Assembly: GCA_021807085.1 (NCBI GenBank)
Contig: JAKAPM010000006.1
Coordinates: forward strand, 1 to 42,739
Length of the DNA: 42,739 nucleotides
Reading direction: 5' to 3'
Origin: Nanobdellota archaeon
GTDB taxonomy: Archaea; Nanobdellota; Nanobdellia; Parvarchaeales; Parvarchaeaceae
How positions within the stretch are numbered: the first letter of the stretch is position 1; each line of letters opens with the position of its first letter. The translations under genes and the position numbers were made by a program. Positions 1,265 to 42,739 of this stretch are shown here, piece by piece. The notes below the pieces were generated by a model, which was given only the letters and a program-made list of their open reading frames with translations, had not been told where the DNA came from and ran no database searches.

Positions 1265-1825
1265 TCAGCCGAGATACATGCTGAATTTCAGCATCTCTGC
1301 ACCGCTGTACGAGAAGCCGTTCCCCGACAGCGTGTACGGCAGTAAGAGGGTAAAAGTGTAGTTTCCCCGCTCTGTAATGTTGAGCCGCTGCGGGTACGGC
1401 CATATGCCGCTGCCGCTGCTGCCGGAGGACACGGATATGGAGACTATCGCGTCGCACGCTGCGCCGGTCATGTACGTGGCGTTTATGACCGCGCCGTCAT
1501 AGCGCGTCACGCCGTCAAAGGGTGAAAAACACCCGCCGGAATAGTGTATTGTGTAATTTGTGGGGTTTTCGAAGAGCACGGTGAACCTTACGAGGCTGCC
1601 GTTTGAATCGAACGACGGTGTAATATTCAGGAACTTGATAGGATAAGCCGACTGGGTGCCCGACATGCTTATCGAATAACTCCCCGCGGAAGCGTTTTCT
1701 GACGCGTATTCTACCGGACCCGTTAGTCCACCGCTGTAAAGAGCCAATTCCGCGATGAAAGTTGCCACGAGCAATGCGGATATTATCACTGCAAAAATAG
1801 CTGCGTTTTCCGTTTCGTTCTTCAT
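1265..1825 (-). CDS. Hypothetical membrane-anchored secreted protein (single N-terminal TM, Ser/Thr/Asn-rich ectodomain)
   Basis: 186-aa ORF starting MKNETENAAIFAVIISALLVATFIAEL, then an extracellular-looking sequence. Confidence 0.7.
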   Translation of the reverse strand: MKNETENAAIFAVIISALLVATFIAELALYSGGLTGPVEYASENASAGSYSISMSGTQSAYPIKFLNITPSFDSNGSLVRFTVLFENPTNYTIHYSGGCFSPFDGVTRYDGAVINATYMTGAACDAIVSISVSSGSSGSGIWPYPQRLNITERGNYTFTLLLPYTLSGNGFSYSGAEMLKFSMYLG

Positions 1826-7730: not shown

Positions 7731-7785
7731 ACGTCCCGGCAACCAACTTATTTAAGGGCGTACATACTATCGTTCATTGGGAACT

Positions 7786-8304
7786 ATGGCGGTTTTCTCC
7801 AGGGACGCGATTCTGAAACTCATAAAGGAGAAGAAACTCAAGATATCTCCCTTCAATAAGTCGCAGGTAGGCCCTGGCTCCGTCGACCTGACGCTTTCCA
7901 ACGTTTTCAGGGTGTTCATCAAGACGAACTCGCTGCTCCAAATACACGACGATACTGATTACAAACCAATCACCAAGACCGTCAGGGTTGCCAAGGGGAG
8001 TTACCTTCTTATGCAGCCAGATGAACTAGTGCACGGAATAACCGTCGAGACCGTAAGCCTGCCGGAGAATGTATCTGCCAGAATAGAAGGGAGGTCAAGA
8101 TTCGCGAGGATGGGGCTTCTGACCCATGTGAGCAGCGGGTTCATGCAGCCTGGTGCTTCCGGGAGGATAGTCCTAGAAATAGCGAATCTCTCGCCGTTCG
8201 CCCTAGCAATTCACCCAGGCACCAGAATATGCCAGATAATATTCGAAGACGTGAAAGGCTCCGCCAAGTACACGGGTAAATTCAAAGACCAGAAAAAACC
8301 TTGA
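7786..8304 (+). CDS. dcd: dCTP deaminase / dUTPase-like protein
   Basis: GPGSVDLTLSNVF, EGRSRFARMGLLTHVSSGFMQPGASGRIVLEIANLSPFALAIHPGTRICQIIFE. Confidence 0.9.
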   Translation: MAVFSRDAILKLIKEKKLKISPFNKSQVGPGSVDLTLSNVFRVFIKTNSLLQIHDDTDYKPITKTVRVAKGSYLLMQPDELVHGITVETVSLPENVSARIEGRSRFARMGLLTHVSSGFMQPGASGRIVLEIANLSPFALAIHPGTRICQIIFEDVKGSAKYTGKFKDQKKP

Positions 8305-8367
8305 GTATTTCACGCGCCCGGAACTGACAGAATAAGATTCGCCGGTGCCCCTTTGTCCGCTGCTTCC

Positions 8368-8463
8368 TCAAATCCTTGATGCCAGAGAGTTATTCCTGAA
8401 TATTATGCCGAGAAGTATCAGCATATAGACGATTATCACTCCGACAATCACTATGTTTAACAT
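8368..8463 (-). CDS. Putative 31-aa single-TM microprotein
   Basis: MLNIVIVGVIIVYMLILLGIIFRNNSLASRI*, preceded on the minus strand by AAGAAGGAGGGGGAA(ATG) and an upstream A/T-rich AAATATTTATTC element. Not in the ORF track because of its length. Confidence 0.5.
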   Translation of the reverse strand: MLNIVIVGVIIVYMLILLGIIFRNNSLASRI

Positions 8464-8824
8464 TTTCCCCCTCCTTCTTATACTATATTATAGAATGCAA
8501 CTTGAATAAATATTTTTCTGTCTATCTCAATCCCTTTTCAGCATAGTTCGGAACGTATACCTTTATTATATATAAGAGATGTCGGCCTTTCTGAATCCGT
8601 ACATTACTACCCACCTTGCTTAGAACGGAACGTTCTTCCACGGGACTACTCTGTCGTTTTCTTCTGTCGAATATACGGACAGTGCCCTCATTATGTCAGT
8701 CTTGAAGATCCTCTTTCTAGCTTTCCTTGCACAAGCTGCACTCCCCTCCGGCACCACACCATGATAGAGGATATTTTCTATATAATCCTTTGTTGGATTA
8801 CTTTAAAATTAAGTACTACTAATG

Positions 8825-8844
8825 TATAGTAAACTATTTATATA
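8825..8844 (+). promoter_or_regulatory. BRE/TATA-like promoter element for the kinase-like gene
   Basis: TATAGTAAACTATTTATATA about 25 nt before the ATG at 8865; identical to 1936-1955. Confidence 0.6.
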
Positions 8845-8864
8845 CTCTCCTCTCTAATAACAGT

Positions 8865-9392
8865 ATGTCGGATTACGATAGGAAGCTGGATGATATAGTA
8901 AGGAGCAAACTCAAGGAGGATTACACCAGTGACTACTTTTTCAAGCCCTATACAGGCGATGAAGCCGGGATACCGGACAAGTACACCATGCGGGATCAGT
9001 TCAAGCTGATGAAGCGGGTATATCACCTTGACCCGGATAGAATAGTCAAGCCGCTGGCGATGGTATCGGAGGGGAAGTCGCTCAGGGGTTTCATACTGGA
9101 AAAAATAGATGGAGAGACACTCAACGAAGCCCGTTTAAAGGAACATTTTTGTAATTACCGATACGACATAGCAGGTCAACTGGAAGAGACCGTGCAGAAA
9201 ATGCACGAGAGGGGCTTCGTGCACGGGGACCTTCACTCAGGTAACGTTATGCTGACAAAATCAGGCATAAAACTCATAGACATGATCTATGTGCCGAAAA
9301 ACCACAGGTCGTTTGCAAAGTACGCGAGATATGATGATGAGCACCTGTACACAATAAGACGTGTAGTTTCCTCCCATAAGAAAGGACAGTGA
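8865..9392 (+). CDS. Small RIO/Kdo-kinase-like protein kinase
   Basis: Catalytic loop HGDLHSGNVML followed by KLIDMIYV (HxDxxxxN ... D). Confidence 0.75.
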   Translation: MSDYDRKLDDIVRSKLKEDYTSDYFFKPYTGDEAGIPDKYTMRDQFKLMKRVYHLDPDRIVKPLAMVSEGKSLRGFILEKIDGETLNEARLKEHFCNYRYDIAGQLEETVQKMHERGFVHGDLHSGNVMLTKSGIKLIDMIYVPKNHRSFAKYARYDDEHLYTIRRVVSSHKKGQ

Positions 9393-9454
9393 CGCACCAT
9401 AAATGTTCGAGTTTCTTTCCCAACATTTATAACTTTTGATATAGTTTACTTAAG

Positions 9455-10564
9455 ATGAGAAACGGACAGGCACAGTCAGCTTTGGAGTACATGATGACGT
9501 ACGGCTGGGCCATCCTCATAATCGTGATAGTGGCAGCCGTCCTCTATTCTATGGGTATATTTAATCCGTCGAGTTCGGCTTCTGCAACTGTGACCGGTTT
9601 TGCCGGTCTGGGGAGTGTACAGGCAAAATGTTTATTAAGCGGCACGTTGGCGATATCATTCGGCAACAATGAAGGCTCTCTGATAAATATAACGAGAATT
9701 AACAGTACCGATTCGTTCGGTTACCAAACATCTTCATATTTCTCTGTTTTGATAGCCCCAGACTCGAATGCAGTAGTGCTCCTGCCCAAAGGTTCCTGCT
9801 CAAATGCATCCTCTGATTCTGTGACGGTTTCGGTATCTTATACTATACCGGGGCAAACTTTTCCAGGACCATACTTCTCTAATGGAAATATAAAAACGAC
9901 TTCTGTTCCAACCTCGAAATCGTTTGCACAAAACTATTATCTTGATTTAAGTGGGTCGCAAACGGGTTATGTACCACCGTGTATAAACGGCACATTTAAT
10001 TATAATCTTAATGCTATCACAATCTCAGCTTGGGTTTACAATAACGGCCAGGGTCCGTACTGGCAGAACATAGCAGAGGTTTTCAATTCAACCGCTGGCA
10101 GTCTTTTAGATATAGGAGTAACATCTGCGGGAGGGTCTGCCGTAGTAAGATGGAATCCGCCCGCTGACGTTATCCAGCCATCTGGAGGTGCAGTGCCTAT
10201 AGATACATGGACTTTAGTCACAGGAACGTGGAATGCGGCAACAAATAACCTAACAATTTATGTAGACGGGGTACAAAAAAGCAGCGCGACGGGAGACGGC
10301 ACAGCATCTATAACAGCCCAAAAATTCAATATAGGGGGCGGATATGCTGGCATGGCAACATTCAACGGTTACCTCAGCGATATACAAGTATACAGCACTG
10401 CACTAACATCTTCTGAGATTAGTACCTTATACTCTGAAGGAGAATACGGCATGCCTATATCAAACGTGGGAATAATATCCTGGTGGCCATTAAGTGGGAA
10501 TGCAAATGACTATAATAATAACAATAACGGAAAAGGTTATCTAATAGGCTGGGGCCCCTCGTAG
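9455..10564 (+). CDS. Class III signal peptide (pilin-like) protein with LamG-like domain, copy A
   Basis: MRNGQAQSALEYMMTYGWAILIIVIVAAVLYSMGIFNPSSS; TIPGQTFPGPYFSNG; LamG-like ITISAWVYNN...YLSDIQVYSTALTSSEISTLYSEG...IISWWPLSGNANDYN. Confidence 0.88.
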   Translation: MRNGQAQSALEYMMTYGWAILIIVIVAAVLYSMGIFNPSSSASATVTGFAGLGSVQAKCLLSGTLAISFGNNEGSLINITRINSTDSFGYQTSSYFSVLIAPDSNAVVLLPKGSCSNASSDSVTVSVSYTIPGQTFPGPYFSNGNIKTTSVPTSKSFAQNYYLDLSGSQTGYVPPCINGTFNYNLNAITISAWVYNNGQGPYWQNIAEVFNSTAGSLLDIGVTSAGGSAVVRWNPPADVIQPSGGAVPIDTWTLVTGTWNAATNNLTIYVDGVQKSSATGDGTASITAQKFNIGGGYAGMATFNGYLSDIQVYSTALTSSEISTLYSEGEYGMPISNVGIISWWPLSGNANDYNNNNNGKGYLIGWGPS

Positions 10565-10566
10565 CC

Positions 10567-11658
10567 ATGGGAAAATCCCAGTCGGCCCTGGAATACATGA
10601 TGACCTATGGATGGGCCATCCTCATAATAGTGATGGTCGCCGCTGTCCTGTATTCGATGGGCATATTCTCTCCTTCTTCATCAGTTTCAGCAACGATAAC
10701 AGGCTTCACAGGTCTTGGAGTGACGCAGGCTGCCTGTGTCAACTCGGTAAACAATCAAATACTGGCGCTTTATGTCTCGAACACAGTGGGCTACACTGTC
10801 AATGTGACAAAGATAAACGTAACCGGCAGCAGCAACGGAATATCTCTATCGCAAAATGTAAGTTCTCTTCTAGGCGCAGGACAGTCCGGTATCTTCTATG
10901 TAAACAGTGCTTGTAACAAGTCTTCATCATCCTATTCCGGCTCGGTTACCATAACTTACACAGAACCAGGACAGGCTTTCTCTGGGCCGTTTTTCTCTAA
11001 CGGAAGACTTTCTGGTATATCTACTAAAAATATTCCTAATTCTGTCGCAAGTTTTAACGGACAGGCATCAACAAATATAAGTGAAATACCTCATTCTACA
11101 TTCCCATCTGGCAGCAACGCTCTTACAATTGTAGCTTGGGTAAAAACGACCCAAAGCACTACATACCCCTTCATTTTTAATTATGGCTTGTACGGCACAT
11201 CGGAAGATAATGCAATGATAGGTATCTACAGCGGACAGGTATGCGCAGATTTCTGGAACCAACATCTATGTGCTAGTGGTACGGTAAGCGGCGGTGCATG
11301 GGACTTAATAGCTTTTTCTTATCCAGGTGGGTCTAACTCTGCGACAACATATGTAAATGAGACGGGGACACTGAATGCTGTGAATCCTGTACCAACAATT
11401 CAAACTGGTTCAGGGACGATAGCAGTAATAGGCTCTGGTACAAACAATTTCTATGACGGTTATATATCGGATGTGCAGCTGTATAACACCGCACTTTCTA
11501 CAACACAAATGCAATCACTGTACGGTGAAGTGGTGGGCGGCGCTCCACTCTCCAACATCGGTCTTATTGCATGGTGGCCACTGGACGGCAACGCTAACGA
11601 CTACAGCGGTAACAATAACAATGGCGTAGCCATGAATGTACAATGGGCGTCTCCTTAA
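10567..11658 (+). CDS. Class III signal peptide / LamG-like protein, copy B
   Basis: MGKSQSALEYMMTYGWAILIIVMVAAVLYSMGIFSPSSS; TEPGQAFSGPFFSNG; LTIVAWVKTTQ...YISDVQLYNTALSTTQMQSLYGE...LIAWWPLDGNANDYSGNNNNG. Starts 2 nt after the stop of copy A. Confidence 0.88.
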   Translation: MGKSQSALEYMMTYGWAILIIVMVAAVLYSMGIFSPSSSVSATITGFTGLGVTQAACVNSVNNQILALYVSNTVGYTVNVTKINVTGSSNGISLSQNVSSLLGAGQSGIFYVNSACNKSSSSYSGSVTITYTEPGQAFSGPFFSNGRLSGISTKNIPNSVASFNGQASTNISEIPHSTFPSGSNALTIVAWVKTTQSTTYPFIFNYGLYGTSEDNAMIGIYSGQVCADFWNQHLCASGTVSGGAWDLIAFSYPGGSNSATTYVNETGTLNAVNPVPTIQTGSGTIAVIGSGTNNFYDGYISDVQLYNTALSTTQMQSLYGEVVGGAPLSNIGLIAWWPLDGNANDYSGNNNNGVAMNVQWASP

Positions 11659-11808
11659 CTAGAAGCTAAAATGACGTTTATAGACATTTTCTATAAGAAA
11701 CATGAAAAAGGAAGATTAGATGTAAACTTATCACCTAAATTTAGGTTATATCTATACATAAAGTATAAATACTTAGTCCATGATGCGGCGAACTCTATAT
11801 TCTCTATA

Positions 11809-11833
11809 GGGAAACTATTTAAATAAGTTTCCC
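11809..11833. promoter_or_regulatory. Inverted repeat enclosing a TATA box upstream of the ATPase
   Basis: GGGAAACT-ATTTAAATA-AGTTTCCC: perfect 8-bp arms around a TATA-like core, 13 nt before the ATG at 11847. Confidence 0.65.
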
Positions 11834-11846
11834 TCTGTATAATACT

Positions 11847-13142
11847 ATGATAAATAGAGATATATTAATTAGATTGATACGTGATTTCCAAGAGAAGAAG
11901 TTGCCAGAAATCCTAAAAAGGGATATTTCTATAGATATCAATACGCGATTGAAGCGCGTTATAACGTTGGTAGGTCCAAGGCGCAGCGGCAAGAGTTTTC
12001 TTATGTTTCAGCTGATAGAAGAATTGTTAGCAAATAAAACAGAAAAAAACAGGATTCTGTTCATCAATTTTGAAAATGATCTACTTGTTGGGTGTGACGC
12101 GGTTGATCTGAGGAACTTGCTTGATTTATTTTATGAGATGACTCCAGATAACAAAAATAACAAGGTATTCCTATTTTTCGATGAAATCCAAAATGTCTCT
12201 GGGTGGGAAAGGTTCGTCAGGACCATAATAGACAGCGAGAATGCGCAGGTAATAATAAGCGGTTCATCCTCAAAATTGTTATCCAAGGAAGTTGCAACTT
12301 CTTTGAGAGGCAGGGCATTGGTATATTATGTTTATCCATTCAGTTTTTACGAGTTTATAACCGCAAAGAATTTTAAACCTCCAAAATACCTATCCTCATC
12401 AGAAAAAGCGAGGATGCTGAATCTTCTCGGGCAGTATTTAAAAGGAAGTTATCCGGAAGCCGTTTTGTTCGAAGAGCAAAGGGATAAAATATTAAGTGAC
12501 ATACTTGATGTCGTCGTTTATAAAGACGTGATAGAGCGCTTCGGCGTAAAGAATCAAAAGCTATTGAGGCTATTACTGAAGGCGCTAATAAACTCGAAAT
12601 ACGTTTCCGTACACAAGTTTTATAATTTTATAAAAAGCATCGGCATAAAAGCAAGCAAAAACACGCTGTATACCTATCTTAGCTATCTCTTAGACTCTAT
12701 GGTGGTTTTCACTCTACACAAATATTCCAAATCGTATAAAGAGCTGGAGCAGACCGTTGCAAAAACCTATTTTTCAGACAGCGGAATGCTCTATGTAAAC
12801 GGAATAGATGATATTGGTAGAGTGATGGAAAACGCGGTTTTTTTGCAATTATTGCGTATGGGAGTAACACTGGATAGAGAGCTATTTTACTTTTCTGATG
12901 TAAGCAGCGAGATAGACTTTTGCATTAAACATGGGAGAGCCGTAACGCAGCTTATCCAGGTATGTTACGACACATCAAATTTAGAAACAAAAGACAGGGA
13001 ATTAAAAGCTCTATTGTCCTCTTCTAAGAAGTTGACATGCAACAATCTCCTAGTCATAACCTGGGATTACGAAGCTGAGGAAAAGATAAAAGGTAAGAAG
13101 ATAAAATTCATTCCGCTGTGGAAATGGCTTCTTAATATTTAA
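11847..13142 (+). CDS. Archaeal AAA-type ATPase (AAA_14/DUF4143-like)
   Basis: Walker A GPRRSGKS, Walker B VFLFFDEIQNVSGWERFVRTIID, IISGSSSKLLSKEVATSLRGRALVYYVYPFSFYEF; C-terminal nuclease-like segment FYFSDVSSEIDFCIKHG. Confidence 0.85.
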   Translation: MINRDILIRLIRDFQEKKLPEILKRDISIDINTRLKRVITLVGPRRSGKSFLMFQLIEELLANKTEKNRILFINFENDLLVGCDAVDLRNLLDLFYEMTPDNKNNKVFLFFDEIQNVSGWERFVRTIIDSENAQVIISGSSSKLLSKEVATSLRGRALVYYVYPFSFYEFITAKNFKPPKYLSSSEKARMLNLLGQYLKGSYPEAVLFEEQRDKILSDILDVVVYKDVIERFGVKNQKLLRLLLKALINSKYVSVHKFYNFIKSIGIKASKNTLYTYLSYLLDSMVVFTLHKYSKSYKELEQTVAKTYFSDSGMLYVNGIDDIGRVMENAVFLQLLRMGVTLDRELFYFSDVSSEIDFCIKHGRAVTQLIQVCYDTSNLETKDRELKALLSSSKKLTCNNLLVITWDYEAEEKIKGKKIKFIPLWKWLLNI

Positions 13143-13166
13143 ATTCGCGTAGCCGATATAACCTCT

Positions 13167-14363
13167 ATGCAAAGGAAAAGCAGCAAGAATAAGTCGCCTC
13201 TGTGCCCAGACACGCGCACAACTAAACTGCTATCTCTTCATTCAAACCATTCGCAATCAGCATTAGAGTACATGATGACCTACGGCTGGGCTATCCTAAT
13301 TATCGTAATCGTTGCAGGTGTTCTATATTCTATGGGAATATTCTCCCCTTCTTCATCAGTTTCAGCAACGATAACAGGCTTCAGCGGATTAGGTTCTCCA
13401 ACCGCATTGTGCATGTCCAATGGAGGATTGCGTTTACAACTTGGAAATAACATTGGTAGCACAATAAATATCACAATGATAAATGTTACGTCTAATGGAG
13501 TGACCCAGAAAGTGCGCCCGAACGAAACTATCGCTCCAGACGGGACTTACATTTTCTACATTCCTAATGTATGCGGAACCTCTGCGGGCGCTAAGTACTC
13601 ATTTACATCCATGGTAACATACATGGAACCCGGTCAGACTTTCGGAGGACCTTACTATACGAGTGGGACCGCATCCGGAACAGTTTCTTCAACGATTATA
13701 CCGTATTGGGCAGTAGAGCATACGAATAATAGTGCTAATAATTTTGGTTCGGCAGCAATTCCCATAAATGCTAGCACTACTTCATTTACTATCTCCCTTT
13801 TTGCTAAAATTGAAAGTAATAGCCCCAATAACGATTTTGCTTTTTCGCTTCCATTAGGTTGCTCCCAGGGGCTTTACTATTCCAATACTGTGGGTATTTC
13901 GTGGACTTGCACAAATAAATATGGTGCGCAGGATTGCACAGACATAGTTAATGCGCCAGCAGGTATGGGATATGAGTATACTTCACCGTATTCTTGGACG
14001 TTTTATACGATAATCTACAATGCTGGTTCCAAAACGTTTTCTGTTTATGTAAATGATAACCAAGTTTCTAGCGTGACTCTTAACAGCACAACCTGGTTAG
14101 AAAACCAGTTTCCTGGTGGGATAGCGGTGTTTCAAAGTGAAAGTAGTAGTTATTCATTAAGTGAAGTGTCGGATATACAAGTCTACAACGAGTCGTTAAC
14201 GCCTTCCCAAATTTCCGAGATATACAAAAATTCTACGTTCCAACCTATCTTTGGGAAAAATTTAATAGTGTGGATTCCTATGAACGGAACTGCAAAAGAT
14301 TACAGCGGACATAACCTCGGTATCGGCACTAATAAGGTCGTGTTCACTACACAGCACAGCTGA
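13167..14363 (+). CDS. Class III signal peptide / LamG-like protein, copy C
   Basis: HSQSALEYMMTYGWAILIIVIVAGVLYSMGIFSPSSS; MEPGQTFGGPYYTSGTASGTVSS; VSDIQVYNESLTPSQISEIYKN...LIVWIPMNGTAKDYSG. Confidence 0.85.
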   Translation: MQRKSSKNKSPLCPDTRTTKLLSLHSNHSQSALEYMMTYGWAILIIVIVAGVLYSMGIFSPSSSVSATITGFSGLGSPTALCMSNGGLRLQLGNNIGSTINITMINVTSNGVTQKVRPNETIAPDGTYIFYIPNVCGTSAGAKYSFTSMVTYMEPGQTFGGPYYTSGTASGTVSSTIIPYWAVEHTNNSANNFGSAAIPINASTTSFTISLFAKIESNSPNNDFAFSLPLGCSQGLYYSNTVGISWTCTNKYGAQDCTDIVNAPAGMGYEYTSPYSWTFYTIIYNAGSKTFSVYVNDNQVSSVTLNSTTWLENQFPGGIAVFQSESSSYSLSEVSDIQVYNESLTPSQISEIYKNSTFQPIFGKNLIVWIPMNGTAKDYSGHNLGIGTNKVVFTTQHS

Positions 14364-14469
14364 ACAAACTCGGGTATGCCCTGTAATCTTAATATACTAG
14401 AATATCCACACACGTGTTCCCCCTGTGTAATCGTGATATAAATAAAAAGACCGGCCAATTAGTTAAAAT

Positions 14470-15642
14470 ATGAGCCGCTTATATATTACGGACAGAAAAT
14501 TTCTAGCTGGCAAAAGAGCCCAGTCGGCCCTGGAGTACATGATGACCTATGGTTGGGCTATCTTAATCATAGTCATAGTAGCAGCAGTATTATATTCAAT
14601 GGGCATCTTCAGCCCATCCAGCAGCGTATCAACAACGATAACAGGCTTCAGCGGATTAGGCTCGGTGACAGCGCAGTGCTATGCCAACGGGGTCCTAAGA
14701 ATACAGCTGGGTAATTCCATAGGAAACACCATAAACATAACAAAGATAACGGCAACAAATACCAAAACAGGAGCATCGTCCTCGTTCTCGGGAAACTCCA
14801 CAGTAGACCCAAATCCAGAGATATCACCAGACGGTGCCTACATCTTTTCCATTCCAAACGTATGCTTATCGGCAGGATCCAGATTCTCGATGTCCGTGGG
14901 CGTTAATTACACAGAACCCGGGCAGATATTCCCAGGACCATACTATTCTAGTGGGTTTGTTTTCGGGACAGTTTCTTCCGCGGAATTACCACCTTTCGTA
15001 GCTAGTTATTCTGATGGGGCGAATAGCGAAACAATAGGGGGTTATTCTGCTCCATCACAGCTAACAATCTCCTTTTGGACGTTTATGCCCAGTCTCGTAC
15101 CCGTTGAGAGCAACGCCTGGGAAGGAATCATCGGCAATTCTGGAGGTGTTACGGGATGCTGTGAATGGAGGATAGGGCCCGTCAACAGTGATGGAAAGTT
15201 GCTTTTCGATACGGGATGGCATGATGACATGGGAACAAGCGAAAAATTCCCTACTGGGGTTTGGAATAACGTGATAATGACGGTTGAAAATTCGGGACTC
15301 GCAACTGTATATTCCCTCCTATTGAACAATGCCAACATAAGTTACGGAAACGCATCTGGAAGCACCATTACAGCCGTGTCGAACATCTATTTTGGCAGCG
15401 CTCCCGGTACGGGTTACTACAACGGCCTAATAACAAACGTGCAAATCTATTCAACAGCACTATCCAGTGCACAAGCAACACAGCTTTACTCTGAAGGCAT
15501 AATGGGGAAGCCGTTGAATGGCCCAACTCTCATAGGCTGGTGGCCGCTAAACGCTACTATAAAAGGATGGTTCAAGGACTATTCGGGTGGTTTGAATAAC
15601 GCGTCTGAAGTGCTGACAACAAGCAATTACCAGGCCCCATAA
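14470..15642 (+). CDS. Class III signal peptide / LamG-like protein, copy D
   Basis: GKRAQSALEYMMTYGWAILIIVIVAAVLYSMGIFSPSSS; TEPGQIFPGPYYSSG; LTISFWTFMPS...LITNVQIYSTALSSAQATQLYSEG...LIGWWPLN. Confidence 0.88.
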   Translation: MSRLYITDRKFLAGKRAQSALEYMMTYGWAILIIVIVAAVLYSMGIFSPSSSVSTTITGFSGLGSVTAQCYANGVLRIQLGNSIGNTINITKITATNTKTGASSSFSGNSTVDPNPEISPDGAYIFSIPNVCLSAGSRFSMSVGVNYTEPGQIFPGPYYSSGFVFGTVSSAELPPFVASYSDGANSETIGGYSAPSQLTISFWTFMPSLVPVESNAWEGIIGNSGGVTGCCEWRIGPVNSDGKLLFDTGWHDDMGTSEKFPTGVWNNVIMTVENSGLATVYSLLLNNANISYGNASGSTITAVSNIYFGSAPGTGYYNGLITNVQIYSTALSSAQATQLYSEGIMGKPLNGPTLIGWWPLNATIKGWFKDYSGGLNNASEVLTTSNYQAP

Positions 15643-15674
15643 TAGATGGGGGTGCTTCGGGTGCAGGTGAAACT

Positions 15675-16334
15675 TTAGCTGTGTTTTGAAACGCCGTTTT
15701 TCGGACAGACGCTATTCAGGATGCACTTGCTGCACAGCGGCATGGTTGAGTGGCATATCTTGTGGCCGTGGGCTTTCATCACATAGGCAATATCTTTCCA
15801 GTGCTTTTTCTCGACGATTGCCATAAGGTCCTGCTCAATCTTTTCCGGTTTGTCGCTGTCGGTCAGGCCTATCCTGTAGGACAGCTTTATTACCCAGGTG
15901 TCCACAGGTATCCCTTCCACGATACCATAGGCATTTATCAGTATGGTGTTGGCAGTCTTTCTGCCTATGCCGGGCAGATCTATAAGCTCATTCATTTTAT
16001 CAGGGACCCTTCCATTGTATTTTTCGGAGATCACGTTGCACGTCTTTATTATGTTTTTTACCTTGTTATCCGCGAACGTGACCTTTTTTGCGTAAGACAG
16101 CAATTCCGGTTCCTTTGCTCCGGCATAGTCCTTTGCTGTCTTGTATCTTCTGAAAAGCTCTGGAGTGACCGAGTTTACTACTACATCTCTAGTCTGTGCA
16201 GACAATATGGCAGCTACTACAAGATCTATGGGTGTCTTGAACTCTAAGTAGTATTTCGTGTTAGGATACTCTTTCTCCAGAGTGCCTATGGCTTCTTCGG
16301 ATTTTTTCTTGCCTAGAAGTTGCGGGTGCGCCAT
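15675..16334 (-). CDS. nth: Endonuclease III (HhH-GPD, FeS)
   Basis: LPGIGRKTANTILINAYGIVEGIPVDTWV and C-terminal Cx6Cx2Cx5C (CHSTMPLCSKCILNSVC). Confidence 0.95.
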   Translation of the reverse strand: MAHPQLLGKKKSEEAIGTLEKEYPNTKYYLEFKTPIDLVVAAILSAQTRDVVVNSVTPELFRRYKTAKDYAGAKEPELLSYAKKVTFADNKVKNIIKTCNVISEKYNGRVPDKMNELIDLPGIGRKTANTILINAYGIVEGIPVDTWVIKLSYRIGLTDSDKPEKIEQDLMAIVEKKHWKDIAYVMKAHGHKICHSTMPLCSKCILNSVCPKNGVSKHS

Positions 16335-34403: not shown

Positions 34404-35612
34404 TTAGAGCGTCAGCTCTTCGTTTATCAGGTCAAGGAAGGCGCCAACAGTCCACGCCTGCACGCGGCATGGCTTCACCGTCAGCCCCTTCTCATCCATC
34501 ATCCTCCCCTTTCGCGACATACCTATATATTCCAGCGGATATTTTTTCTCTATCACGTAATCCAGTATTCTTTTTCTGAGTTCGCTGTACTCGTCCGCGT
34601 AACCCCTAGTCTGCAGGCCCTTGGCTATGAACCAGTTGTCGTTGAACCACACAGAACCCTTCTGGTATTCCTTTTCGTCGAAATACGGGTCGCCTGCGGC
34701 AGTGGTCCTTATCCCGTATTTTGTCAGCATGCTGTCTCCGAACAGACTTTTCACGACCTTGTCCGCCATCGTATTGTTTATTATCCCGCTGTAAAGGAGG
34801 TGGCCCTGGCTGCTGGTCAGCGACGTTATCCTCTTGCCGTCCTTCAGCGACAGCGCGGGCGAATACGCGCCAATCTCCTCCATCCACATCCTCCCGTCTG
34901 TGCTCTCGTGGAGTTTTTTCAGCAGACCTTTCAGTATGCCTGTATTATATCCTGTGTCGAACCTCTTCGCAATCTCCATGAACCCTTCCAGTGCCCTGTA
35001 AGTGTAAGACTGCACCTCCACTGCCGCTATGTCGCCGTCCAGCCCGTCGTACACCCCCCAGCAGCCGTCTTTCCAGCACATCGATGCCAGTTGCCTGCCG
35101 TACATATCGCGGTTGTACACGAGAAGCCCGTCTTTCAACCCGTATCTCACAATCCAGTCCACCGCTGACACAATGTTGTGCAGTATCTCGCCGATCAGGT
35201 CCCTATCATGCGTCGCCTTGTAGTATTCTTCCGCCCCTATGACAAAAAGAGGAGTGCTGTCTATGGAGTAGAAATACGCGACGTCCGGCTTCGGGAATTT
35301 TTGCTTCCTGCTGATCTCGTCGTTCTTTGTTCCCCACTTCCTCGAATAGAGTTCGTGCAATATCTTCCCCGGCTCTTCGCCAGTTACGCTGTCAATCGCC
35401 CTTCCCTGGTTTTTTGCCAGGATTCTGAGGGTGTTGCCGAGTATGTTCGGAGAAACATTCAGTGTCTCCAGTGCCGAGATTAGGGAATCTCTCCCGAACA
35501 GCTCTTTGAACCTCGGTATTCCCGCTAGAAGGAATCCCTCTCTGGCCGAGAGTTTCCGCAGTAATCTTTCATAATAGGCTTTCCTCTCTCGCAGAATCTT
35601 ACGGGACTGCAT
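34404..35612 (-). CDS. Glycogen-debranching / amylo-alpha-1,6-glucosidase-like glycosidase
   Basis: GIPRFKELFGRDSLISALE, DVAYFYSIDSTPLFVIGAEEY, (alpha/alpha)6-type pattern. Confidence 0.8.
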   Translation of the reverse strand: MQSRKILRERKAYYERLLRKLSAREGFLLAGIPRFKELFGRDSLISALETLNVSPNILGNTLRILAKNQGRAIDSVTGEEPGKILHELYSRKWGTKNDEISRKQKFPKPDVAYFYSIDSTPLFVIGAEEYYKATHDRDLIGEILHNIVSAVDWIVRYGLKDGLLVYNRDMYGRQLASMCWKDGCWGVYDGLDGDIAAVEVQSYTYRALEGFMEIAKRFDTGYNTGILKGLLKKLHESTDGRMWMEEIGAYSPALSLKDGKRITSLTSSQGHLLYSGIINNTMADKVVKSLFGDSMLTKYGIRTTAAGDPYFDEKEYQKGSVWFNDNWFIAKGLQTRGYADEYSELRKRILDYVIEKKYPLEYIGMSRKGRMMDEKGLTVKPCRVQAWTVGAFLDLINEELTL

Positions 35613-35697
35613 AACATGCTTAGGTTTTCCCCATATTAATTTTTTTCAAAAATTCTGTATTTTAGCGAAAATAAAGATTTATATATGAATATTTTTT

Positions 35698-37071
35698 ATG
35701 GTTAGTATGCAAAGGACAAGTAGTGGTTACGCAGCGTCCGTAATTGTTACCGCAATAGTGGTTGCGATAATTTTCTTCTTCATAGGTTACTATTCCCATT
35801 CCCCTACAACTACGCCGGGCACAACCACAATAACCTTCTACGAGAGTCTGGCCCCAGCCGAGCAGGCTTATTTCACCAATGTCCTGATACCTGAGTTCGA
35901 GGCGCAGTATCCCAACATAAGCGTTCAATTCGTGAACCTCCCTAGCGGACAGCCTCCGTCGACTATAGCCACCCTTGTTCAGGCGAACAAAGTGGGCGCA
36001 TCGATAGTTGGTCTAGACAACCTGGCAGTGGGAGAGGACCTGTTCCCTGGATATCTCATGAACCTTTCGTCAATAGTCTCAAACATGATGCCTAGCACGC
36101 TGATATCCAGTGCAGCGAACATGGTCAGCTACGAGAAGCAGGTCTTCAACGGAGTCTATTTCATACCTTTCAGATCCAACATCCCTCTTGTCTTTTACAA
36201 CAAGACTGCGTTCACCAACGCAGGCATAACCACACCTCCGGCAACGGACACGCAGTTGTTAACCGATGCACAGACCATATACACCAAGACTGGCGTTAAG
36301 GCAGTTATGTTCCAGGGCGCAGCCAACACGGGCGGACACAGCGGTGCAAGCACCGGTACAGAGCTGTATCAGTGGATGGTACAGGACGGCGGCAATCCTT
36401 TCGTATTCAACGACACTGGAGATATACAAGCATTCGAATTCCTGTACAATCTCAGCGCGTACTTCACGCCTGGTTACACGGGAGGTTACTGGGGCAGCTA
36501 CAAAGGTCTCGCTACAGGCGTTTACGACTATCTGGACTACCAGTGGCCTTACGTATACGGAATACTCACGAATGGCACGTATAACATGAACAACAACAAC
36601 CTAGGCGTCTACGGCGGGCCATCGGGAACCAGCAACGACAACCACTTGCTAGGCGGCGACGTACTGGTGATACCTAAGGGCGCTACCGACATACCTGCTC
36701 TCGAGACGTTCGCGAAGTTCCTACTCAGCCCGACAGCACAGAAGCAGACACTGGTCCAACTTTCATGGGTCGCGATAAACTCGCAGGCGTATCAGAACCT
36801 GCCTTCCAACACCTCAGTAGTGGGAGCGGCACTCAACCAGTCGATAAGCGGCGGAGTATTTCTGAGGGACCCTACCCCGTGGATTAGTCAGTGGAATGTG
36901 TACGCCAGCGACGCCTTCACACAGATAATAGTGGACCACGCGTCGTACAGCCAGATACCCTCGATACTGAGCAGCTACAACGCGCAGATGTACAGTTACA
37001 TAGCGTCGAACTACAACTCGAGCGTTGCAAACAAGTACGAGGCAGGCTACTACAAACCGATTTCGATTTGA
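35698..37071 (+). CDS. Sugar ABC transporter substrate-binding protein, membrane anchored
   Basis: ITFYESLAPAEQAYFTNVLIPEFEAQYPNISVQFVNLPSGQ typical of family 1 SBPs; N-terminal TM VIVTAIVVAIIFFFIGYY. First gene of a transporter cluster. Confidence 0.9.
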   Translation: MVSMQRTSSGYAASVIVTAIVVAIIFFFIGYYSHSPTTTPGTTTITFYESLAPAEQAYFTNVLIPEFEAQYPNISVQFVNLPSGQPPSTIATLVQANKVGASIVGLDNLAVGEDLFPGYLMNLSSIVSNMMPSTLISSAANMVSYEKQVFNGVYFIPFRSNIPLVFYNKTAFTNAGITTPPATDTQLLTDAQTIYTKTGVKAVMFQGAANTGGHSGASTGTELYQWMVQDGGNPFVFNDTGDIQAFEFLYNLSAYFTPGYTGGYWGSYKGLATGVYDYLDYQWPYVYGILTNGTYNMNNNNLGVYGGPSGTSNDNHLLGGDVLVIPKGATDIPALETFAKFLLSPTAQKQTLVQLSWVAINSQAYQNLPSNTSVVGAALNQSISGGVFLRDPTPWISQWNVYASDAFTQIIVDHASYSQIPSILSSYNAQMYSYIASNYNSSVANKYEAGYYKPISI

Positions 37072-37086
37072 TGCCCCTGTCCCTGA

Positions 37087-37129
37087 ATATCCTTTTTTTA
37101 TTCCGCATTATTTTTTTCCCGCAACATTT
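37087..37129 (+). terminator. Possible T-tract terminator/attenuator after the SBP gene
   Basis: CTGAATATCCTTTTTTTATTCCGCATTATTTTTTTCCCGC: two T7 runs right after the SBP stop codon. Confidence 0.4.
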
Positions 37130-37163
37130 TTGCGCGTAAAATACTAACTTATTAATACAAATA

Positions 37164-38030
37164 TTGCCTATACTTGAAATGCCTCTTGTAAAGGAAAAAT
37201 ATATCCCTCTTTTCTTCATCGTCCCCGCCCTCGCGTACGAAGCATACTTTTCGTTTTATCCCACCTTCAGCGCCGTGTACGGGAGTTTTCTGACCGCCAG
37301 CGGAAAATTCTCAACAGTCAACTACAAGGAACTTGTGGGTCTCGGAGTGTACCACGCGATAACCAACACCGTAGTCGTGACGATAGGCGCCCTCGCGCTC
37401 CAGTTTCTTCTCGGTTTCGCGATAGCCAGCATCCTCATAAGGAGCTTCAGGGGAAGGAACACGTTCTCCGCCCTCTTGATGATCCCGTTCGCAACAGCCA
37501 CCGTCGTCGCGGCTTACATATTCTCTAACGTCTTCTCGCCGGTGGGGGGATATGCGAACAGCCTGCTGTCGTTCTTCGGTATGGCATCCGTGAACTGGAA
37601 CGGGGCAGGCAGCAGTTTTATAATAAACGTGCTGCAGCTGGTTGTCTCCGACAGCTGGAAGAACACTCCTATAGTGGCACTGATTCTCTTGGCGGGGATG
37701 ACCGCAATACCAAAGGACCTGTACGATGCTGCGGCGGTCGACGGCGCCGGCTGGTTCTCTAGGCTGATACACATAACCATCCCGAATCTCATAGGTTTCA
37801 TAGTGATAGCCTTGGTGATAAGGGGAGTAAGCGAATTTAACATATTCGCCATAGCGCTGCTGATTTTTCCGCACAAGCTTCTGACGACACTAGTGTACGG
37901 GCTGTTCTCACTCGCCGCCAAACCCTACCTGTCTTTCGCGGGAGCTAGCGTGCTGCTGGCATTCATACTCGTCTTTGTGGCGATAGTACTGGTGTTGAGG
38001 AAGGTGTTCGCCGCCAAGGAGGCTTACTGA
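37164..38030 (+). CDS. Sugar ABC transporter permease (MalF-like)
   Basis: Multi-TM with EAA-type motif DLYDAAAVDGAGWFSRLIHITIPNL. Confidence 0.93.
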   Translation: MPILEMPLVKEKYIPLFFIVPALAYEAYFSFYPTFSAVYGSFLTASGKFSTVNYKELVGLGVYHAITNTVVVTIGALALQFLLGFAIASILIRSFRGRNTFSALLMIPFATATVVAAYIFSNVFSPVGGYANSLLSFFGMASVNWNGAGSSFIINVLQLVVSDSWKNTPIVALILLAGMTAIPKDLYDAAAVDGAGWFSRLIHITIPNLIGFIVIALVIRGVSEFNIFAIALLIFPHKLLTTLVYGLFSLAAKPYLSFAGASVLLAFILVFVAIVLVLRKVFAAKEAY

Positions 38031-38848
38031 TGATGAAGAAAAAATCGATGGACTACTTGGTATACGTAGCCGTCATAGTTATAAGCGTGCTCTTCATGTA
38101 CCCTATATTCATCCTCTTCATGATAGCCTTCGTGCCGGCCAAATACACCGTGCAGTCCGCGTATCCCTCCCTGTACCCAAGAGGCTTCACGCTGCAGTAC
38201 TTCGAGCAGGCGTTCTCAATAAACCTGTTCGGACCGCTCCTGAAGAGCCTCGAGGTTGCGTTCATGGTAGGGGGGATAGCTATAGCGATAGGCATACCTG
38301 CGGCCTACGGGCTGAGTAAACTGAAGCCGAGCTGGGCGGGTGGCATAGCTACGCTTCTATTCCTATCAAATATGATGCCGTCGATAACAATAGCAATCCC
38401 GATAGCCGTCGAATTCCTGGAACTAGGCCTTTACGACACGGCGATAAGCCTCGCGCTGGCGCAGGAACTGGTCGTCCTGCCCCTCTCTATATTCATACTG
38501 CTCGGTGCGTTCCAGGCTCTGCCAAAAGACCTCGAAGCGCAGGCGAGGGTGGACGGCGCTGGGCTTTTGAGGACGATATATACGGTGCTGACCCCTCTTG
38601 CAAAGGCCGGCGTAGCGGCAACGTTCCTTATAGCGTGGATGATGTCGTGGGACGAATTCACGTTCGCGATATTCCTGTCGCCGATACATCCGACCCTTCC
38701 GATAATAATCTACGAGAATATAACTAGGGGGAATATACTCGCGACATCCGCCTTCGCGCTGATAGTGACCCTTCCCGTCATAGTGCTTGCGGTAGTACTG
38801 TCCAAATACCTCAAAGGTGAATATCTCGCGGGGGGCCTAAACGGGTGA
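38030..38848 (+). CDS. Sugar ABC transporter permease (MalG-like)
   Basis: EAA-type motif DLEAQARVDGAGLLRTIYTVLTPLAKAG; start overlaps the previous gene. Confidence 0.93.
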   Translation: MMKKKSMDYLVYVAVIVISVLFMYPIFILFMIAFVPAKYTVQSAYPSLYPRGFTLQYFEQAFSINLFGPLLKSLEVAFMVGGIAIAIGIPAAYGLSKLKPSWAGGIATLLFLSNMMPSITIAIPIAVEFLELGLYDTAISLALAQELVVLPLSIFILLGAFQALPKDLEAQARVDGAGLLRTIYTVLTPLAKAGVAATFLIAWMMSWDEFTFAIFLSPIHPTLPIIIYENITRGNILATSAFALIVTLPVIVLAVVLSKYLKGEYLAGGLNG

Positions 38849-38885
38849 AGCCAAAGTATTTATGAAATGGGGTGGATAAACTTTT

Positions 38886-39887
38886 ATGTCCGAATACAAA
38901 CTGGAACTGGTTAACGTCTCGAAGAGATACGGCAAGAAGGTGGTGTTCAACAACCTGAGCGTGCAGGTCAAGAACGCAGAGTTCTTCGTCATACTGGGCC
39001 CTTCCGGTACCGGAAAGTCGACTCTCCTGAAGGCGATAACCGGCACGATACCACCGGACAGCGGCAGGGTCATCCTCGACGGCAACGATATAACCGACAT
39101 ACCTATAAACAAGAGGAATATAGCTATGATGTTCCAGAACTACGCCCTCTACCCGAACATGACCGTCTACCAGAATATATCCTTTCCCCTGAGGATGCAC
39201 CACCGCGACCCTACCGACATAGACAGGAGGGTCAGGAAGGTTGCGAGAATGCTGAAAATATCTGATATAATAGACTCAAACGTCACGCAGATAAGCGGCG
39301 GACAGAAGCAGAGGGTGGCGCTGGCCAGAGCGATAGTGAGGAACCCCGCGATATTCCTGCTCGACGAACCCCTGTCAAACTTGGACGCCAGAATCAGATA
39401 CACCGCCAGGGAAGAACTGAAAAACATACAGAGGATGCTCAACCGTACTTTCGTACAGGTAACCCACGACCAGAGCGAGGCGAGGGTCCTCGCGGACAGG
39501 ATAGCCGTACTAAACGAAGGTAAGTTCGAACAGGTCGGCACCTTCGACGAGATATATAATTATCCTGTCAACACCTGGGTCGGCGACTTCGTCGGTACCT
39601 TTCCCATGAATTTCATAGACCTTCCTAAGAGCAAAGGCAAACAGATGGGCTTCAGGCCGGAATGGACAGCGATAGCGAAAGGGAAGGGAATCAAGGCGAC
39701 TGTGGTATCAACGGAGAACATAGGCGACACTGTATTCCTATTCTGTTCCGTATCCGGCTCAGCAAAACCAGTTGTCATAAAGGGCTCCCGTTTCTACAAG
39801 AACGGCGACAGGGTAAATTTCGTGATAAAGCGCTACAACACCTACGACAGGGGGAAGCTCGTCAGAAACGAGAAGCGCCGTGTCTGA
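38886..39887 (+). CDS. Sugar ABC transporter ATP-binding protein (MalK/UgpC/MsmX-like)
   Basis: LGPSGTGKSTLL, ISGGQKQRVALARAIVRNPAIFLLDEPLSNLDARIR; C-terminal OB-like region. Confidence 0.95.
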   Translation: MSEYKLELVNVSKRYGKKVVFNNLSVQVKNAEFFVILGPSGTGKSTLLKAITGTIPPDSGRVILDGNDITDIPINKRNIAMMFQNYALYPNMTVYQNISFPLRMHHRDPTDIDRRVRKVARMLKISDIIDSNVTQISGGQKQRVALARAIVRNPAIFLLDEPLSNLDARIRYTAREELKNIQRMLNRTFVQVTHDQSEARVLADRIAVLNEGKFEQVGTFDEIYNYPVNTWVGDFVGTFPMNFIDLPKSKGKQMGFRPEWTAIAKGKGIKATVVSTENIGDTVFLFCSVSGSAKPVVIKGSRFYKNGDRVNFVIKRYNTYDRGKLVRNEKRRV

Positions 39888-39982
39888 AGAACCGGTCCCC
39901 GTCCGGGCTGCACCGTATATTCTCCCTTTCTGCGAAAACAGTAAGTTAGAAATAGGAGGAAAAATATAAGTAATAATATCAT

Positions 39983-41734
39983 ATGTCGCTGACGTTCAAA
40001 GATTCCAAAAAATGGGGCATGATAAGCAACCAGCTTACAGCTTCTCTGGTGGGCTCCGACGGGAACGTCCTTTGGATGTGCATGCCGCGGTTCGACTCCG
40101 ACCCAATCATCGCCTACATGCTGGACGAGGACAACGGCGGAAAATTCTCCATAATGCCGAAGGAAGAGTACACGTCGGAGCAGAAATACGCCGCCCCGAA
40201 CATACTGAGCACAGTATTCAGGACAGCCAAAGGCACGTGCACGGTGACGGATTTCCTACCACCTGGAAAGACAATGTTGGTTAGAGACGTAAGATCCGAC
40301 ATAGAACTCGAGTTGCAGATGCAGCCGACCTTCAGTTTCGGCAACTCTGGGATAAATTACTCTGAGAACGAGGGATTCGGCGTATTCGACAATGCGTCAG
40401 GCGACGACAGAGTAGTAACAAAGATAGAGATGAACGTCGCCGAGAGGAACGGAAACGTTTACACCCTGTCTCCAGGGAACGGGCACGTCGCAATGGCTTA
40501 CTACGTATCAAGAGAGGTATTCAATTTTCCGGCCGAGAGGGAGATGTTCCAGGCGATATCAAAAATACTGGAACCGACGATAGAATACTGGAATTCAAAG
40601 ATAAAACTAGACATAGACGGAATAAAGTCCTCTGGAGTGCCGGAACTGGACCGTGTGTTCAATGCGTCGATACAGGTCGTACTGGGCTTGGTTTATTCCC
40701 CTTCTGGTGGGATAATAGCGGCCCCAACTACCTCCCTGCCAGAGGATCCTGGCGGTGTAAGGAACTGGGATTACAGGTTTGTATGGGTGAGGGACTGTTC
40801 AATAATGGCGTCTTCTCTGTGCGACGTCGAGTTCGTCGTCGAGGGGAGGAGAGCACTGGAGTTCCTTTTCGGACTGGTCGACTTCTCCGGAAAACCGTTC
40901 TACAACCTCTACAAGGTCAACGGAAGCAGGATATACGGGGAAAAATACATGAATAACCTCAGCGGCTTCATGGGCTCGAAACCTATAAAGGCCGGAAACA
41001 GGGCGTCCAACCAGATACAACTCGATATAGAAGGCGAGTTCATGGACGCTGTGTACCATTATTTTGGGAAGACAAAGGATACCGAGTTCATAAAGGCTCA
41101 TGCCAAGGCGATAGAATACATAGGTGACTGGCTTTCAGACAACTGGCAGCTGACTGATTCGAGTATTTGGGAGAAGACCGACGACAAGGAGTACACGTAT
41201 TCGAAAGTGATGATGTGGGTCGCACTCGACAGGGCGGGCAAGCTTCTGTCCGTCGTCGGGGAAAAGGACAAATGGGTAGGAGCCAGGGCGCTGATTAAGA
41301 GTTGGGTGATGTCGAACTGCGTTAAGAACGGCCACTTCGTGGTCGAACCCAACAGCCAAAGAGTCGACGCGACTCCGCTGCTTTTTCCCCTGTACGGCTT
41401 CATGGACGTGAATGACCCCGTCTTCGTGAATACTCTGTCGCTTATAGAGAAGACTCTGGTGAAAAACGATTTCGTCTTCAGGTACGTTTCGGATTCCCTC
41501 GGTAAGAGCCTCCACGCGTTCAGCCTGTGCTCCTCGTGGCTCTCCTCCGTCTATTCTAAGATGGGAAACAAAAAACGTGCGAAGGATATCCTTATCAATC
41601 TTGCAAGACTAAGCGGCCCTCTCGGTCTTATAGGGGAGGACATCGACGTCGGGGAGATGACGTTCACAGGCAACTTTCCGCAGGGCTTCTCGCACGCTGG
41701 GTTCATACAGGCCTTCCTTGAGCTCCAGTCGTGA
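39983..41734 (+). CDS. Glycoside hydrolase family 15 (glucoamylase/trehalase-like)
   Basis: GGVRNWDYRFVWVRDCS, NQIQLDIEGEFMDAVYHY, SSIWEKTDDKEYTYSKVMMWVALDRA. Confidence 0.92.
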   Translation: MSLTFKDSKKWGMISNQLTASLVGSDGNVLWMCMPRFDSDPIIAYMLDEDNGGKFSIMPKEEYTSEQKYAAPNILSTVFRTAKGTCTVTDFLPPGKTMLVRDVRSDIELELQMQPTFSFGNSGINYSENEGFGVFDNASGDDRVVTKIEMNVAERNGNVYTLSPGNGHVAMAYYVSREVFNFPAEREMFQAISKILEPTIEYWNSKIKLDIDGIKSSGVPELDRVFNASIQVVLGLVYSPSGGIIAAPTTSLPEDPGGVRNWDYRFVWVRDCSIMASSLCDVEFVVEGRRALEFLFGLVDFSGKPFYNLYKVNGSRIYGEKYMNNLSGFMGSKPIKAGNRASNQIQLDIEGEFMDAVYHYFGKTKDTEFIKAHAKAIEYIGDWLSDNWQLTDSSIWEKTDDKEYTYSKVMMWVALDRAGKLLSVVGEKDKWVGARALIKSWVMSNCVKNGHFVVEPNSQRVDATPLLFPLYGFMDVNDPVFVNTLSLIEKTLVKNDFVFRYVSDSLGKSLHAFSLCSSWLSSVYSKMGNKKRAKDILINLARLSGPLGLIGEDIDVGEMTFTGNFPQGFSHAGFIQAFLELQS

Positions 41735-41811: not shown

Positions 41812-42739
41812 ATGAAGAGTCTGTACAGGGTGGGAATAGCGCTCGCGGTCATAGTAACTGTAGTAGTCGTACTGTTCGTAGTCTCATATAAACTAGGTTC
41901 TTCTCCGACTACAAGCACATCTCCGTACGGAAACGTGCTCCTGAGCCTTACGGATCCGGCTAACGTACCAGCAGGCACCCAGAGCCTGGTAATAAACTAC
42001 AACAGTCTTTCTGTCCATACAAGCGGCGCAAACGGCAGCGGATGGACCTACCTGAACGCCAGCGGCTCTGACATCAATCTGCTTTCGCTGCAGAACTCTA
42101 GCGTAGTTCTAGACAGTTTCTCTCTTCCCAATGGCACTTCAATAAATATGATAAGGTTCAACGTTTCGAAGGCGGTGATAACCATAAACAATACGCAGTA
42201 CCTGGTCACTCTTCCCAGTAACCAGATAACCGCGCACATCAACGGTTCACAGGTCGTCAACGGTACCGTGCGCGTGCTGCTGGACTTAGCTCCTACAGTG
42301 ATTACAATCGTAACCGCCAATTCGACGGTATTCATAATGGTACCGTCCGTCAAAGCGGTGATAGTGCCCAAACCCGTCTCCGTCATAAGGACCCGTGGCG
42401 CTGTAGTCAACCTAAGCGAGAGGGAGAGAGTGGATCTTGCGGACATAACGCCCAACATAACCATAACTTCGGCCTCCCTGTCAACCCTTAACAACCTCAC
42501 CAGCCTGCAGATTACAGTCAAGGACAACTCCAACGCGAGCGTGCTGCTGAGGCATGTCAGCCTTTTCGGAAATGAGTCCGTAAGCATCCCTAGGATCAAC
42601 GTGACTAACATACGTGAAATAGGTCACGGTGAGATCAACGTCACTGAGAGGGGTAACGTTACGAGCGCACCGATTCTGCGTGCCAATGTCACCACAAGCG
42701 CTATACTGAAAACTTACGACGACGTCGTGCCTACTGACG
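41812..42739 (+). CDS. Membrane-anchored DUF4382-like secreted protein (3' truncated by window edge)
   Basis: Not in the ORF track (no stop within the window). Open frame from ATG 41812: MKSLYRVGIALAVIVTVVVVLFVVSYKLGSSPTTSTSPYGNVLLSLTDPANVPAGTQSLVINYNSLSVHTSGANGSGWTYLNASGSDINLLSLQ... TATA-like GTTATTTATATAC about 25 nt upstream. Confidence 0.8.
   Translation, partial: MKSLYRVGIALAVIVTVVVVLFVVSYKLGSSPTTSTSPYGNVLLSLTDPANVPAGTQSLVINYNSLSVHTSGANGSGWTYLNASGSDINLLSLQNSSVVLDSFSLPNGTSINMIRFNVSKAVITINNTQYLVTLPSNQITAHINGSQVVNGTVRVLLDLAPTVITIVTANSTVFIMVPSVKAVIVPKPVSVIRTRGAVVNLSERERVDLADITPNITITSASLSTLNNLTSLQITVKDNSNASVLLRHVSLFGNESVSIPRINVTNIREIGHGEINVTERGNVTSAPILRANVTTSAILKTYDDVVPTD

Follow-up and report, generated by a model that had tools for sequence, protein, structure and literature searches.

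In the antigenic variation of Neisseria pilE/pilS, a type IV pilin keeps its N-terminus constant, while the C-terminal part is recombined. In bacteria, modular pilins are also known that carry concanavalin-like or PF13385 modules (PMC9934059, PMC8179133), and PilC of Streptococcus sanguinis binds glycans (PMC9934059). Among archaea, the secreted VARTIG proteins of Thermococcales vary their C-terminal domain by recombination and are transferred between species (PMC8416519). Expansion of LamG proteins is described for Mia14 (PMC5498576), for Undinarchaeota with arCOG07813 (PMC7414124) and for nanohaloarchaea (PMC10266531, PMC9563170), so that the LamG expansion itself is not new in DPANN archaea. 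For the way in which these ultra-small organisms select and keep their hosts, LamG proteins have been proposed as candidates, but no mechanism came with the proposal. Pilus-like contacts have been reported between ARMAN cells and Thermoplasmatales (PMC4110969). Here we analyse a family of LamG proteins that are carried on a pilin-type anchor.

Gene map and insertion site

The window is one whole contig of 42,739 nucleotides (G000:C23:1-42739) from a genome of 675,293 bases in 24 contigs that is 91% complete. This genome belongs to a tiny archaeon of acid mines and, together with its genus-mates, is of the Parvarchaeota type, in agreement with the DPANN-type archaeon assumed in the initial annotation. 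The four full copies and the one partial copy read from the DNA at that stage were all recovered, and all lie on the forward strand. The first gene (P0001; 9455-10564) encodes anchor and stalk at about 9464-9886, the LamG domain at 10004-10423 and a conserved tail up to the stop codon. Gene 2 (P0002; 10567-11658, LamG 11083-11508) starts 2 nt past gene 1, and genes 3 (P0003; 13167-14363, LamG 13770-14216) and 4 (P0004; 14470-15642, LamG 15052-15474) follow. The partial copy (3-905, LamG 306-749), with its start beyond the contig end, is cut since the contig begins inside it and is not a pseudogene; over 300 aa it shares 69% identity with a gene that is complete in the genus-mate G014 (L125). 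In G014, a second nth-like gene begins directly past the stop of a LamG gene (L125:3634-4290). The description of 9455-15642 as a pilin array holds for the four LamG genes but not for the span as a whole, as an AAA_14-DUF4143 ATPase gene (11847-13142, +) sits between genes 2 and 3.

The four LamG genes, the ATPase and a small protein-kinase-like gene (8865-9392, +) form a segment of 7.4 kb (8305-15674) with a G+C content of 0.37-0.48, below most of the contig. It is bordered on the left by dcd, encoding dCTP deaminase (7777-8304, +), and on the right by an nth-like gene of the endonuclease III family (15675-16334, -). In G029, a TrmB-like gene, dcd, nth and a methyltransferase gene are found in the window's order with a dcd-nth gap of about 257 bp, and the spacing, by coordinates, is similar in eight further genomes (about 260 bp). 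Because these relatives have an empty dcd-nth site, we regard the segment as an insertion or as local growth. The same interval in G011 (L066, G011:C6:4500-10000) carries different genes, by reading hydrolase-, NUDIX-, signal-peptidase- and ferredoxin-like, and since these genes are unrelated, the site is variable. Elsewhere in the window, predicted exported proteins are encoded at 1265-1825 (-), without any family match, and at 41812-42739 (+), with DUF4382. At 34404-41734, translations read by eye suggest two glucoamylase/glycoside-hydrolase-like genes that enclose an ABC transporter of the sugar type, with a binding protein, two permeases and an ATPase, a set that is notable for a reduced DPANN genome.

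Architecture and copy number of the family

In the complete proteins (363-398 aa), a short leader is followed by the QSALEYMMTYGWAILI helix and then, over about 110 residues, by the stalk; the LamG domain and a C-terminal tail come next. The anchor sequence QSALEYMMTYGWAILI(I/V)... aligns in all window copies that reach it; the stalk ends in a P(G)Q.F.GP(Y/F).S.G motif. The two modules named earlier, TEPGQ.F.GPY.S.G and a C-terminal motif of the DYSGN type, were indeed found as T.PGQ.F.GP(Y/F) and W(W/I)P(L/M)...DY(S/N) in all copies reaching them; at the DNA level, the repeats that cover anchor and motif have identities of 65-79%. "Nearly invariant", as the N-terminus had been called, is correct for the signal/TM segment but not for the stalk, which has a mean protein identity of about 43-54% within genomes. 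A class III signal motif with Glu at +5 (QSALE) is present in nearly every copy having an N-terminus. As neither the class III signal profile nor the N-methylation profile of Pfam matched, the signal-peptide call rests on this motif together with weak UpsA matches in NCBIfam (best E 0.011). The proposed pilin-type anchor is accordingly backed by the motif and by the modelled helix, but not by the Pfam part of the HMM search suggested at the outset.

The LamG-like region was rightly recognized: Laminin_G_3 (PF13385) scores above its curated cut-off in all five window proteins (E 3e-22 to 6e-7), which gives each of them a C-terminal effector domain in addition to the pilin part. PDB profile matches of this domain are concanavalin-like lectin folds; the toxin binding domains among them have the fold in common and nothing further. 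The structure check proposed earlier likewise gave a predicted LamG-type fold, with pentraxins and laminin LG domains as the best Foldseek matches of the AlphaFold model of copy 1. This model, of modest confidence (mean pLDDT 61), consists of a helix at 9-32, strands at 44-148 and a second beta domain at 177-344; copy 3 gave a weaker one (mean pLDDT 54). The strands at 44-148, predicted at moderate confidence, correspond to the stalk, for which no sequence family match was obtained. N-glycosylation sequons are not enriched. The same pilin anchor is fused elsewhere to DUF2341 repeats or YVTN beta-propellers (L026:5821-8208, L029:3051-4646, L027), so that LamG is only one of several heads. As to the type IV pilus (T4P) machinery, this genome encodes two ATPase loci, platform proteins and one A24 prepilin peptidase. 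The T4P locus on C16 is adjoined by one LamG gene and a short pilin-like gene, and the peptidase by an anchor-bearing gene.

A profile built from the five copies found 21 places in this genome, while PF13385 alone found 13. By the same kind of search, 16 genus-mates have 7-30 places each and 12 genomes from other genera of the class 0-7 each; these numbers are approximate, as all genomes are fragmented assemblies, many of them broken inside the repeated anchor. The multi-copy repertoire put forward in the initial annotation is therefore confirmed by the genome-wide count, with copy numbers that vary among genus-mates. The ends of contigs C7, C16, C23 and C24 of our genome, and of contigs from several genus-mates, lie inside the anchor, and because assemblies break there, the gene counts are probably too low. 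Carriage by viruses was rejected, as we found no confirmed relative among viral contigs, and none was detected by DNA in phage records.

Exchange of modules and transfer of genes

For the comparison of modules we used 57 full-length genes from 12 genomes. The DNA of the signal/TM segment has a mean identity of 0.83 within genomes and 0.74 between them; the LamG DNA gives 0.36 and 0.37, which is the level of unrelated sequence. When the signal/TM segment is compared, 37 of 54 genes have their best DNA partner within their own genome (6.4 expected); in the case of LamG, 4 of 54 do. In windowed profiles, a block of about 92-100% identity opens near the promoter and runs to +400/+440, followed by an abrupt drop to about 0.35-0.45 across LamG and a climb to 0.5-0.98 over the last 100 nt; outside these limits the identity is random. 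Pairs differ in the left edge of the identical block (it lies at +140 in a G016 pair, for instance), which is what recombination tracts would produce. Indeed, mosaic pairs located on a single contig are 0.97 identical in anchor and stalk and 0.37-0.39 in LamG, and in G004 we observed the reverse, with N modules 45-50% identical and LamG 92-100% identical, hence the same LamG on a different anchor. The combination of an anchor at 0.85 or above with LamG below 0.5 occurs in 16 of 178 within-genome pairs versus 4 of 1418 between-genome pairs, and the mosaic pattern recurs in at least five genomes. Gene 4 of the window (starting at 14470) and a gene at the C16 end have stalks of 97-98% identity over 180 nt; past this stretch the identity falls to 0.45 or less, the LamG parts being unrelated. 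C23 and C24 start with a shared stalk, the same stretch of about 127 nt, and then diverge.

More importantly, LamG types a and b are both present in G004 and G012, which allows a two-by-two test. LamG groups by type and the anchors group by genome, with an anchor dS of 0.13 within G004, 0.09 within G012 and about 1.4-1.6 between the two. AU tests reject the a-a and b-b anchor clades (p 1e-33 and 4e-11) as well as the within-genome LamG clades (p 0.003 and 0.0007); these clades were picked after the trees had been seen, so that the p-values are nominal, and the log-likelihood gaps are large (84-233). Additionally, the N-module tree groups genes by genome label, with 31 changes versus a shuffled mean of 40.1 and minimum of 36; the LamG tree does not (40 changes versus a shuffled mean of 39.8). 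Because the synonymous divergence of the anchors is low, purifying selection alone is excluded as the cause of their conservation. From these sequence comparisons we conclude that the diversity arises by recombination of modules, heads as well as anchors, within the genome. The initial annotation had correctly stated that the central region differs strongly between copies; a mechanism such as module recombination had not been part of it. Frameshift phase variation was considered separately and rejected, as the apparent frame breaks in G009 and G010 fall at runs of N in the assembly (one more break is found in L120). In the openly available literature that was searched, we found no description of such anchor/LamG mosaicism.

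Both modules are at least 0.8 identical in five between-species pairs. In the G012/G016 pair, the stalk is 0.92 and LamG 0.93 identical, with block edges near the promoter and shortly past the stop codon; the nth and dcd genes of these two genomes are 0.63 and 0.59 identical. Whole genes, then, also pass between species. The dN/dS of LamG is 0.08-0.17 in five close pairs, so the heads are kept rather than diversified, and diversifying selection on LamG as a whole is not seen in these pairs. Stable orthologous copies under purifying selection, without variation in number or sequence, had been named as a finding that would speak against a recognition repertoire. What we see lies halfway: purifying selection keeps individual LamG types stable from one species to the next, while their number, locus and anchor vary. 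Near-identical whole LamG genes in different species were also seen for G012_L093 and G016_L098 and for L114 and L100, one of these with homology past the stop codon.

The ATPase and the rival explanations

The window ATPase ends ...FIPLWKWLLNI*, 24 nt upstream of gene 3. A family gene lies directly downstream of 11 of 33 such ATPases in 11 genomes, where about one would be expected (P about 1e-8 at an assumed base rate of 3.5%; the G012:C3 adjacency within this count was taken from coordinates), and several ATPases are sandwiched between two family genes. Of 79 family genes, 20 have retained the short 3' end of the ATPase gene (TGGAAATGGCT) upstream of them, also where the remainder of the ATPase has been lost; this end contains a probable promoter (TTTAAATC). 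This kept end may simply be the family promoter, or it may mark a cassette border. The ATPase matches the PADLOC candidate defence family PDC-S01 (E 1.5e-98), and a literature search on DUF4143 returned nothing relevant. G015 carries 13 AAA_14-DUF4143 ATPases, partly in tandem (L180-L186), none of the 13 with a family gene directly downstream. One may speculate, although we consider this doubtful, that the family is a diversification system for pilus lectins in which LamG heads pass as cassettes from gene to gene and from species to species between conserved flanks, the ATPase being dedicated to moving or rearranging them, by which an obligate symbiont would change the host archaeon it binds.

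The copies stand side by side in the window and LamG is their most divergent part, which would suit copies made by ordinary tandem duplication, with LamG then driven apart by rapid point mutation under diversifying selection. Yet pairs with random-level LamG (dN >1) have an anchor dS of 0.09-0.19, orthologues of the LamG types in other species show the low dN/dS given above, and the same LamG is found on different anchors. As the two-by-two test and the reverse mosaic contradict it, we hold this course of events to be very improbable. Even less credence is due to chimeric joining of repeats in the metagenome assemblies: several contigs end inside the anchor and C23 and C24 begin with the same stretch, which is typical of an assembly-graph branch, but mosaic copies with 3% anchor differences lie on one contig, the pattern is present in several genomes, and near-identical anchors and unrelated heads both exist whichever way they are paired. 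Programmed switching, in which an expressed copy is rewritten from silent cassettes in the pilE/pilS style or by a diversity-generating retroelement, would yield genes with a constant 5' part, a variable 3' part and homology at either end. The retroelement was rejected, as no reverse transcriptase match (RVT_1, PF00078) was obtained in G000, 91% complete, where control profiles matched. Silent cassettes fit poorly with full copies that keep a start codon and mostly an upstream TATA-like region, and the inspected loci contained one headless fragment (L075 7718-8171) and no library of such cassettes, so that we find programmed switching as a whole quite unlikely.

The LamG genes could also be cargo of mobile or defence islands, with the ATPase moving or protecting the cassette and the diversity being a by-product or a virus-avoidance trait. 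The adjacency to ATPases, the kept 3' end, the PDC-S01 match and the low G+C insertion at an otherwise empty site all point in this direction. Against it stand the 13 ATPases of G015, none of which directly precedes a family gene, the majority of family genes that have no ATPase remnant, the probable promoter TTTAAATC, which could by itself explain why the 3' end is retained, and the fact that neither terminal repeats nor an integrase were identified; on balance we judge the island reading unlikely. A slightly better, but still small, chance is given to an uptake-type role of the LamG proteins in place of partner recognition. Two members weakly match an NCBIfam bindosome assembly protein (best E 0.0011), and the sugar-type ABC transporter and glucoamylase-like genes in the window, read by eye, would go well with it. 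Nothing decisive opposes this role, but a large exchangeable repertoire would seem to fit partner recognition better.

Proposed function and comparison with known systems

We consider it likely that the family represents modular lectin pilins that are cassette-shuffled by recombination between conserved flanks and used for attachment. The class III signal peptide/TM helix and the pilin-like stalk would lead to processing by the prepilin peptidase, after which the protein would be anchored in a pilus-type filament or assembled into it; we infer entry into filaments, and single membrane-anchored receptors could be an alternative. The lectin-type LamG domain would face outwards and bind glycans or proteins of other cells. 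A genome keeps 7-30 such genes, whose near-identical 5' arm (promoter, anchor and stalk) and shorter conserved 3' arm (the last ~100 nt) would allow LamG or the anchor to be swapped, presumably by ordinary homologous recombination or gene conversion, and whole genes spread between species. An adhesive role is suggested by the architecture, by the T4P genes and, by analogy, by the glycan-binding PilC of S. sanguinis (PMC9934059). The attachment would be to partner cells, for ARMAN-type archaea probably Thermoplasmatales, and such a role would fit the pilus-like contacts between the two (PMC4110969). The family offers a concrete, countable set of candidate receptors in which the head can be exchanged while the pilin anchor stays constant, and it makes specificity testable head by head. 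With it, modular lectin pilins, and within-genome recombination as the source of surface diversity, gain an archaeal example.

Neisseria pilE/pilS and the LamG family share the constant N-terminus and the recombined C-terminal part. Neisseria, however, uses a single expression locus, a silent store lacking 5' ends and short minicassettes, whereas here we see neither such a locus nor such a store, and a whole lectin-type domain is swapped. Bacterial modular type IV pilins likewise join a pilin with a class III signal peptide to a C-terminal concanavalin-like lectin module, for which an adhesive role was proposed (PMC9934059, PMC8179133); they comprise one or two genes and another pilin type, in contrast to the 7-30 copies, the archaeal anchor and the exchange of the lectin module found here. 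The LamG sets of DPANN archaea are similar in that a host-dependent archaeon carries many LamG surface proteins, in Mia14 partly tied to T4P loci and a genomic island; the accessible text of these papers (PMC5498576, PMC7414124, PMC10266531, PMC9563170) describes no shared pilin anchor or module recombination. For recombined surface domains, VARTIG is the nearest archaeal parallel, with secreted proteins, a recombined C-terminal domain and interspecies transfer as in our family. VARTIG is defined by a variable C-terminal Ig domain (arCOG07710), a place that is taken by LamG in the window proteins. For VARTIG, recombination of the Ig domains was observed from one genome to another but not among the loci of a single genome (PMC8416519), whereas in the family described here exchange within the genome, on a pilin anchor, is the main signal.
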